From Erythrobacteraceae bacterium (GTDB lineage: Bacteria; Pseudomonadota; Alphaproteobacteria; Sphingomonadales; Sphingomonadaceae): a stretch of 64,000 bases of DNA. The notes beneath the pieces were generated by a model that made no database searches, had not been told where the DNA came from, and was given only the letters and a program-made list of their open reading frames with translations. This document shows positions 1 through 44,653 of the stretch, piece after piece. The translations under genes and the position numbers were made by a program. The first letter of the stretch is position 1; every line of letters starts with the position of its first letter. Location: the NCBI GenBank assembly GCA_947479055.1, contig CANJYE010000005.1, positions 1 through 64,000 on the forward strand, in the 5' to 3' direction.

Positions 1-596
1 ATTGTAGCGCGGACCACTTGACGCGAAACATGATTATCAGGGAAATTCCTCTTGACGATTTCAAATACATCAGAGCGTTTGACCTCGGTATCGATTTTAA
101 GTTGGCCTATAAAATCATTCAGATCGGTGTTTTTGACATTCTTGCGAGCGACGCCCCGTTCGCTCGCATTACTCGTTGGGCGGAGCACCGGCCGGCTTGT
201 CGATGTGAGAAGTCCCTCAATATCTGCCCTACTCAACAGCAGGTCTGATATCTCGTGATAGGCGCGAGCCGCGTTCCCATAATTGACACTGACATCAAAG
301 TTCCCACGGCTTAATGACTGACGCCTGATAGTGCCAGCTGACGGGCCACCTAGCATTTTGTCCCGAATGAACCTCCAAAATTCGGCTTTAGCGCCATCCT
401 GTATTTGATCTATTTCTTCGGTAGAAATCCAGCGCCCTAAAAAATCGAAACTTGTATTCCAAGATCGGGCTTTCATTTCGACCGCGCCTTCTTCAAGCGC
501 ATGGAAGAGTTCTGAGATGGCTTCTTCCCGTTCCCATGCTTCGGCGAGGAGGTCGATTGCTCTGCTCACAGGAACCCAAGCATTAGCCTTGGTCAT
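1..596 (-). CDS. Unknown accessory protein coupled to the integrase (3' end outside window)
   Basis: An open frame of 198 codons runs without a stop from an ATG at 594-596 to the window edge. Its first 14 bases overlap the end of the integrase gene, so the two are probably translationally coupled. The visible protein begins MTKANAWVPVSRAIDLL and is hydrophilic, with a charged helical N-terminal part and no signal peptide or membrane segment. The last visible part (KRSDVFEIVKRNFPDNHVSR) has the look of a small helical DNA-binding tail, but this is only an impression. Base composition is clearly less GC-rich than in the housekeeping genes. I do not recognise a family. The position inside an integrated element is the only functional hint. 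Confidence 0.6.
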   Translation of the reverse strand, partial: MTKANAWVPVSRAIDLLAEAWEREEAISELFHALEEGAVEMKARSWNTSFDFLGRWISTEEIDQIQDGAKAEFWRFIRDKMLGGPSAGTIRRQSLSRGNFDVSVNYGNAARAYHEISDLLLSRADIEGLLTSTSRPVLRPTSNASERGVARKNVKNTDLNDFIGQLKIDTEVKRSDVFEIVKRNFPDNHVSRQVVRAT

Positions 597-1803
597 GGAC
601 TGCTACTCCGCCTGAATTGAGATATGCGGTCCAATCATCCATCAGAACCTTGCGCTTGGCTAGGAGGTCTCCGCGCCGATAGGCAGCTTCCACTTTGTTC
701 GCCACCGTATGCGCTAGCGCCATTTCCACCACCTCAGGAGAATGATTCGTGTTCTCGGCCGCCCAGTCTCGGAAGGTCGACCTGAAGCCGTGAACAGTAA
801 ACTGCCCTAATCCCATCCTCTTGAGGACGGCTGCCAGGGTCATGTCCGAAAGCGGCTGCTTGAAAGATCCCGGGAACACCAAATCACACCCCTTGATCCG
901 TGGCAGGCGTTGCAAGACCGTTAGAGCCGCAGCAGACAGTGGTACCCTATGCTCACGGCCAGCTTTCATTCTCTCGCTTGGGATGATCCAAACACCATCC
1001 GCGAGGTCGATTTCGGACCAAGTGGCACCGCGCACTTCGCCGGAACGTGATGCGGTAAGAATGGTGAACTGAAGGGCGCGTGGGCTGATGCCGTCCCTAT
1101 TCGCCAAATCGATCCAAAAGCCTGACACATCCTGCCAAGGCATCGCGGGGTGATGCCGTACCCGCTTTACCTTCGAGATCCGGGGCAACGCTACTTCCAG
1201 ACCACCACGCCAAATTGCAGGGTTCTCGCCACTGCGCCAACCTTTGAGCTTGGCGCTATTCAGCACAGCCTCGATGCGCATCCGAACGCGGCTGGCAGTT
1301 TCGGGCTTCTCGCTCCAAATCGGTCGCAGCACCTTGATGATGTGCTCGGCCGTAATGTCACCAACTGGCAGGTCGCCGATCGTCGGGTAAGCGTAGGTCT
1401 TCAGGGTGTTCGACCACTGCTGACGGTGCTTTGCATTTCTCCAGCCAGCTTCCTGATCGGCAATGTATTCTGCAGCTGCCACCTTGAAGGTTGCCGCACG
1501 GCGGGTTCGTGCTTGAGCTTCTGCAAGCCTAATCTCCGATTGCGCAGCGATAGCTTCTCGCCGACCCTCAATAGGGTTGATGCCTTGCGCGATCATGACT
1601 TTGAGCCTGGCAGCTTCCGCACGGGCATCTGCTAGTGAAAGGACGCTTACGGCCCCCAGGCCCATTTCGCGACGTTTGTGGCTCATCTGGAAGCGCAAGA
1701 TCCAACTCTTGCTCCCGCTTGGCTTCACGCAAAGATAGAGCCCGTTTCCATCGGCGTGCATGCCCGGCACGGCATTTCGAACCTGCAAACTCGTAAGTCC
1801 CAT
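583..1803 (-). CDS. Tyrosine-type site-specific recombinase (P4-like integrase)
   Basis: Integrates and excises a mobile element at the neighbouring tRNA gene. The 406-residue protein has an N-terminal arm-DNA-binding domain of DUF4102 type (residues 1-85, with ADGNGLYL), a central SAM-like domain (about 105-200) and a C-terminal catalytic domain. Visible catalytic residues are R253 (SRSGEV), H338 and R341 (HGFR), H365 and the nucleophile Y375 (EAAYRRGD). The frame stays open to an ATG at 1887, but the family starts at MGLTSLQ, so I chose the ATG at 1801-1803, which has AAGG a few bases upstream. The gene reads away from the 3' end of tRNA-Ser, the classical layout of an island integrase. The rest of the element lies to the left, outside the window. 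Confidence 0.92.
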   Translation of the reverse strand: MGLTSLQVRNAVPGMHADGNGLYLCVKPSGSKSWILRFQMSHKRREMGLGAVSVLSLADARAEAARLKVMIAQGINPIEGRREAIAAQSEIRLAEAQARTRRAATFKVAAAEYIADQEAGWRNAKHRQQWSNTLKTYAYPTIGDLPVGDITAEHIIKVLRPIWSEKPETASRVRMRIEAVLNSAKLKGWRSGENPAIWRGGLEVALPRISKVKRVRHHPAMPWQDVSGFWIDLANRDGISPRALQFTILTASRSGEVRGATWSEIDLADGVWIIPSERMKAGREHRVPLSAAALTVLQRLPRIKGCDLVFPGSFKQPLSDMTLAAVLKRMGLGQFTVHGFRSTFRDWAAENTNHSPEVVEMALAHTVANKVEAAYRRGDLLAKRKVLMDDWTAYLNSGGVAVHDQG

Positions 1804-44029: not shown

Positions 44030-44058
44030 CTTGAAACACCAGTCGGGAGACATATCTA
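44030..44058 (+). promoter_or_regulatory. Sigma-32-type heat-shock promoter for hsp20
   Basis: CTTGAAA (44030-44036) and CATATCTA (44051-44058) fit the alphaproteobacterial RpoH pattern CTTG, 17 bases, CYTATNT, with one mismatch. The spacing from CTTG to the -10 element is exactly 17. Transcription would begin near 44065, leaving a leader of about 118 bases before the hsp20 ATG. Confidence 0.7.
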
Positions 44059-44064
44059 ATCACT

Positions 44065-44182
44065 GTGCCATGCGCCGCAAGCCTGTCCTGAGCGAAGGTG
44101 GAAAGGCGTGACACACAAACCGCAGGGATGCCGGCCCGCCGGGTCCCGTTTGTCAGATTGCTCAATAGAGGATTTGCGAAAG
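44065..44182 (+). promoter_or_regulatory. ROSE-type RNA thermometer in the hsp20 leader
   Basis: The leader ends in a hairpin that hides the ribosome site. UUGCU (44158-44162) pairs with AGGA (44169-44172) leaving G44160 bulged, the hallmark of ROSE elements. The stem extends outward through C54-G76, A55-U75, G56-U74 and A57-U73 (all 441xx), with the loop CAAUAG. A second GC-rich stem can form at 44131-44142. Leader length and the gene type (small heat-shock protein) also fit. Heating would melt the stem and free the ribosome site. Confidence 0.7.
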
Positions 44183-44653
44183 ATGAACCGTTTTGATTTT
44201 ACCCCCTATCGCCGCAACATGGTTGGCTTCGATCGCCTGTTCGACATGCTCGAAGGCAATGCCCGGCCCAACAGCGGCGACAATTATCCCCCCTTCAATA
44301 TCGAGCGGCGTGGACAGGATGCCTATCGCATCACTCTCGCCATCGCCGGCTTCAAACCCGCCGATCTCGACATTGTCGCCCAGCAGAACCTGCTGGTGAT
44401 CAAGGGCGCGAAGAAGGAAGAAGGGTCCGACGGCGAATTCCTCCATGTCGGCATCGCCAACCGCGGCTTTGAACGCCGCTTCGAACTGGCCGATTTCGTC
44501 CGGGTGGAAAACGCCGACCTGGCCGACGGCCTGCTGGTGATCGATCTGGTGCGCGAAGTGCCCGAAGCGATGAAGCCGAAGAAGATCGCCATCGGCGGGC
44601 AGAAAGTGCTCGAAGTGGTCAAGACCGACGAGGACCAGGCCAACGCGGCCTGA
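44183..44653 (+). CDS. Small heat-shock protein, Hsp20/IbpA type
   Basis: ATP-independent holdase that binds unfolding proteins. The 156-residue protein has an N-terminal arm (MNRFDFTPYRRNMVGFDRLF), an alpha-crystallin domain at about 35-130 (YPPFNIERRGQDAYRITLAIAG to LLVIDLVREVP) and the C-terminal I-A-I contact motif (KKIAIGG). The ATG at 44183 matches IbpA-type starts; an upstream extension to 44108 falls inside the leader. It has a heat-shock promoter, a ROSE-like leader and a strong terminator, so it is a single-gene transcript. Confidence 0.95.
   Translation: MNRFDFTPYRRNMVGFDRLFDMLEGNARPNSGDNYPPFNIERRGQDAYRITLAIAGFKPADLDIVAQQNLLVIKGAKKEEGSDGEFLHVGIANRGFERRFELADFVRVENADLADGLLVIDLVREVPEAMKPKKIAIGGQKVLEVVKTDEDQANAA

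Follow-up and report, generated by a model that had tools for sequence, protein, structure and literature searches.

A predicted ROSE-type RNA thermometer in the hsp20 leader of an Erythrobacteraceae bacterium

Gene context and promoter of hsp20

The stretch of DNA analyzed (64,000 nucleotides, here called the window) encodes a 156-amino-acid Hsp20/alpha-crystallin protein (Table 1), the sole Hsp20 found in the 3.03-Mb assembly to which the window belongs. Its closest relatives were in records of Sphingomonadales, Altererythrobacter, Croceicoccus, and Novosphingobium. A divergent glutaredoxin gene lies upstream and a CTP synthase gene lies downstream on the opposite strand; thus, hsp20 needs a promoter of its own. 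A GTG at position 44108, which would open a 181-amino-acid reading frame, was rejected as the start codon, as the ATG following the Shine-Dalgarno (SD) sequence is kept in homologues and the stretch preceding it evolves as RNA helices.

Alphaproteobacterial RpoH (sigma-32) promoters fit the pattern CTTGAAA-15-CATATCT, and both boxes are present upstream of hsp20, separated by 15 bases when counted from the end of CTTGAA. Across 81 homologous upstream regions, the pattern scored at least 11 of 14 in 78, compared with 3.2% of shuffles, and 69 of those regions shared the 15-base spacer. A sigma-70 promoter scan found nothing. A preliminary description of this DNA had proposed an RpoH-like promoter 35 bases upstream of the leader; CTTGAAA does begin 35 bases before position 44065, and the pattern is conserved. 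The sequence of this promoter suggests RpoH as its sigma factor, with a predicted transcript start at approximately 44064.

Table 1. Features of the hsp20 locus in the window
Feature	Coordinates	Strand	Evidence or description
Predicted RpoH (sigma-32)-type promoter	44030..44057	+	CTTGAAA 44030-44036, CATATCT 44051-44057
Hairpin 1, where the transcript is predicted to start	44064..44116	+	UGUG-CCA-UGCGCC 44064-44076 with GGCGUG-A-CACA 44105-44115
Approximately 24 extra bases in the hairpin 1 loop	44080..44104	+	Missing from 28 of 29 leaders in the alignment
Hairpin 2, GGGAU-G-CCG / CGGGUCCC, with invariant bulged G44130	44125..44147	+	Compensatory changes
Hairpin 3, putative thermosensing ROSE hairpin sequestering the ribosome site	44154..44176	+	Fold, conservation, held-out model (50.9 bits)
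UUGCU anti-Shine-Dalgarno motif, G44160 bulged	44158..44162	+	U(U/C)GCU in 56 of 56 aligned leaders
Shine-Dalgarno sequence GAGGA, 10 bases before the ATG	44168..44172	+	Invariant in 56 leaders
hsp20	44183..44653	+	PF00011, E value, 6.5e−17

Conserved hairpins of the leader

The hairpin closest to the gene, hairpin 3, was predicted to fold as 44154 CAGAUU-G-CUC-AAUA-GAG-GAUUUG 44176, in which UUGCU pairs with AGGA (44169 to 44172) around the bulged G44160. This pairing and the extended outer stem had both been described beforehand, and the fold reproduced each at the same positions. The core of hairpin 3 was nearly invariant across 56 aligned leaders, with GAGGAU and, within the motif, GCUC fully so, and because it hardly varies, covariation within it was slight. 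In hairpin 2, both sides had changed at seven of the nine pairs while 95% of cells remained paired in the same 56 leaders; the bulged G44130 was present in every one of them, and the ROSE_3 consensus of Rfam leaves the same G unpaired. Hairpin 1 formed in the fold when the pair span was limited to 60 nt. An equivalent stem could be aligned in 29 leaders, with a poorly conserved middle, and 77.7% of its cells were paired, a proportion that no shuffle out of 500 equaled; the value was obtained by counting the named structure, as the RNAalifold consensus of this alignment was poor. The promoter and hairpin 3 of the preliminary description stood, but hairpins 1 and 2 and a loop insertion (see below) had been overlooked.

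Taken as a whole, the structure had 96.1% standard pair cells in the 56 leaders versus 87.5% in shuffles, not one of which (out of 500) attained the native value, and controls in which the structure was slid along the alignment reached at most ∼60%. The alignments were drawn from the 80 top-scoring relatives of a single protein and therefore sample one clade densely. Conserved inverted repeats near a promoter could also be DNA sites for a regulator, with no RNA element involved, and ROSE itself was originally taken for a protein site (PMC4166951). For this leader such an explanation is extremely improbable, as conservation tracks RNA pairing, with G-U pairs, bulges, and the SD all part of the pattern and loop length free, and the core element is fixed relative to the start codon whereas its distance from the promoter varies.

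Folding energy and computed melting

The stability of the fold was not unusual, with z-scores of −0.9 for 44115 to 44190 and 0.05 for the full leader. Thermodynamics alone therefore does not reveal the element; conservation does. When hairpins 2 and 3 of the window were folded alone, the computed SD exposure climbed from 0.06 at 25°C through 0.17 at 42°C to 0.37 at 60°C. The median exposure of the homologues rose only from 0.11 at 25°C to 0.21 at 42°C. Exposure at 25°C was below 0.1 in 47.5% of native leaders versus 8.75% of controls whose upstream part had been shuffled. Among the 81 minimum folds predicted, only 52 contained the canonical core pair, perhaps because nearest-neighbor parameters miss the nonstandard pairs of ROSE elements.

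Computed melting was gradual and model-dependent, as might be expected of a simple hairpin over the ribosome site that reduces translation without sensing temperature in the physiological range. This reading is very unlikely given that different families of the class retain the ROSE core exactly, down to the bulged G and the weak pairs, and almost always in front of heat-shock genes, and that a matching core senses heat in Bradyrhizobium as well as in Pseudomonas (PMC9450479, PMC3669281).

An enlarged loop in hairpin 1

Measured between the −10 box and the ATG, the window leader was the longest of 81, at 125 bases (median, 99). Its additional bases in the loop of hairpin 1 contain CCTGTCCTGAGCGAAGG (44082 to 44098), which resembles CCTGAGCYTGTCGAAGG, a dispersed repeat of the same genome for which 17 pattern matches were found versus 2 for the reversed pattern. 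The leaders of three other genomes (L030, L038, and L049) carried related extra bases at this site with hairpins 2 and 3 intact, and the loop may be a tolerated landing site for such sequences.

In the ViennaRNA minimum fold of the full leader, the insert pairs with hairpin 3, and this predicted pairing flattens the computed temperature response: SD exposure was ∼0.34 to 0.39 over 25 to 50°C, hardly changing. The element could thus be ROSE by descent with a switch that the repeat-like insertion has weakened or broken, leaving it leaky or flat. The rival fold was favored by ∼2.8 kcal/mol at 30°C over the short-range-limited fold, and the exposure of 0.34 at 25°C compares with the homologue median of 0.11, so in this model the insert could blunt the switch in its own genome. 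A weakened or lost switch is nevertheless unlikely, as hairpin 1 can still be the first to close while the RNA is being transcribed and retains its outer pairs (UGUG/CACA and UGCGCC/GGCGUG), and the three homologues with similar loop extras keep hairpins 2 and 3. The 60-nt pair limit, a crude stand-in for cotranscriptional folding, restored all three hairpins. It is quite doubtful that the loop repeat, by competing for the thermosensing hairpin, has produced a retuned thermometer that alternates between two folds rather than simply melting.

Covariance model searches

The Rfam ROSE covariance models, whose use had been proposed as a check on the preliminary description, gave matches to the window leader below the gathering score: 15.7 bits against a cutoff of 43 for ROSE_3 (RF02523) and 14.0 bits against 45 for ROSE (RF00435). 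No ROSE match at the gathering score was found in the window or in 14 homologous loci. The E values of 0.54 and 8.6 were computed for all 4,227 Rfam families at once; for a few ROSE models named in advance, chance matches of this kind would be much less likely than these values state. The gathering cutoff is moreover a curator's threshold and no biological feature. Among 99 genomes of the family, RF00435 scored above its cutoff in 8 and RF02523 in none.

A covariance model built from 32 homologous leaders, with the window excluded, matched 44109 to 44184 at 50.9 bits (E value, 6.1e−12), and the second-best match in the 64-kb window reached 9.1 bits (E value, 0.74). On this sequence evidence, the held-out match and the near-invariant core place the leader element beyond chance. 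A second local model, R1, which includes the window leader, gave a single strong match in the genome of origin (55.3 bits; second best, 14.2 bits) and found matches in 57 of the 99 family genomes. At 69 of the 77 loci read outside the genome of origin, the gene directly after the R1 match was hsp20; within the family this held for 46 of 50 loci, and elsewhere in the class for 23 of 27. Graded subthreshold RF00435 matches coincided with many R1 sites (e.g., in genomes G013, G045, G061, and G060). That RF00435 passes its cutoff in some family genomes and gives weaker matches to many R1 sites argues for the window element being a diverged member of the ROSE family.

Elements at other loci

According to PMC4166951, ROSE elements invariably accompany small heat-shock genes. 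Two elements above the RF00435 cutoff lay before non-Hsp20 reading frames: L149 (∼586 to 669, plus strand; 49.8 bits) and L151 (minus strand, G017:C1:2560595-2560678; 53.4 bits). The downstream reading frame opens with a short basic stretch (MRTIVRDLIRGRRR...), continues into a signal-like sequence, and encodes a secreted-looking protein rich in W and H; no Pfam match was found for it. At L109 (1501 to 1585), from another family of the class, a canonical-looking hairpin 2 and ROSE hairpin (GCGGGATGCCG...CGGGTCCCGC ... TGTTGCTCCACGGAGGACG) are directly 5′ of a 62-amino-acid non-Hsp20 reading frame. In the genome of origin, AATTGCTTAAAGGAGGATT (L087, 1501 to 1519; C8:78740-78758) lies just before the ATG of a 498-amino-acid reading frame that has a signal-like start and resembles a TonB-dependent receptor; this match, at 14.2 bits, is perhaps due to chance.

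Proposed mechanism and comparison with known ROSE elements

The identity of the Hsp20 gene, the core with its bulged G, the conserved helices, with covariation in hairpins 1 and 2, and the conserved RpoH-type promoter agree with the ROSE element of the preliminary description, and the hsp20 5′ leader very probably contains a ROSE-type RNA thermometer. Transcription would be initiated by RpoH near 44064. As long as the cell is at growth temperature, UUGCU in hairpin 3 would pair with AGGA through few and partly nonstandard pairs and keep ribosomes off. Upon heating, hairpin 3 would melt gradually; hairpins 1 and 2, which are stable and may assist its correct folding, would remain folded, and the ribosome site would then open and Hsp20 would be made. 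Control is likely exerted at two levels, as the preliminary description proposed, with RpoH acting on transcription and the ROSE element on translation. Such a temperature response would be textbook in its mechanism, and the element would count as one more ROSE family member. The Sphingomonadaceae (in the broad sense), where public models find few such elements, gain a well-supported one, from which an improved family model and the invariant bulged G of hairpin 2 follow.

In a literature search, no paper linking ROSE or an RNA thermometer to Novosphingobium, Sphingomonadales, or Erythrobacter was found, and in a paper on Hsp17 of Sphingomonas melonis (PMC10434288) these terms occur only within the reference list. 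A 2005 prediction cited in PMC3669281 had listed over 40 ROSE candidates from alpha- and gammaproteobacteria, and a relative may already be among them.

Of the features that define ROSE elements (PMC3669281, PMC9450479), the window element has a position within a small heat-shock gene's 5′ leader, with the PF00011 gene directly downstream; pairing of U(U/C)GCU with the SD around a bulged G in the 3′-most hairpin; and, where one to three stable hairpins are described upstream, hairpins 1 and 2, both backed by shuffle controls. Its score stays below the Rfam gathering threshold. Two further features of ROSE elements are RpoH-dependent transcription, to which the conserved promoter sequence may correspond, and an SD that is released, with a rise in translation, at heat-shock temperature; here the computed exposure went from 0.06 to 0.17 between 25 and 42°C for hairpins 2 and 3 and stayed flat at ∼0.34 to 0.38 for the full leader. 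The Bradyrhizobium hspA-type element (RF00435) shares with it the U(U/C)GCU-SD pairing, the bulged G, several upstream hairpins, and an hsp20 target, and hairpin 3 aligns to model positions 62 to 84; unlike RF00435, the window element has a first hairpin enlarged by insertion and scores far below the model's cutoff. ROSE_3 aligned over its full length (1 to 69), and hairpin 2 is nearly identical between the two (GGGAUGCCG...CGGGUCCC), including the unpaired G, although the score again falls well short of that required. The ROSE-like element of Pseudomonas ibpA (PMC3669281) likewise consists of a stable GC-rich hairpin followed by one with U(U/C)GCU, the latter being thermosensing in Pseudomonas. 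That element is RpoH dependent, while a role for RpoH at the window is suggested by the promoter sequence, and the Pseudomonas leaders are ∼62 nt long with two hairpins, compared with ∼119 nt and three hairpins in the window.
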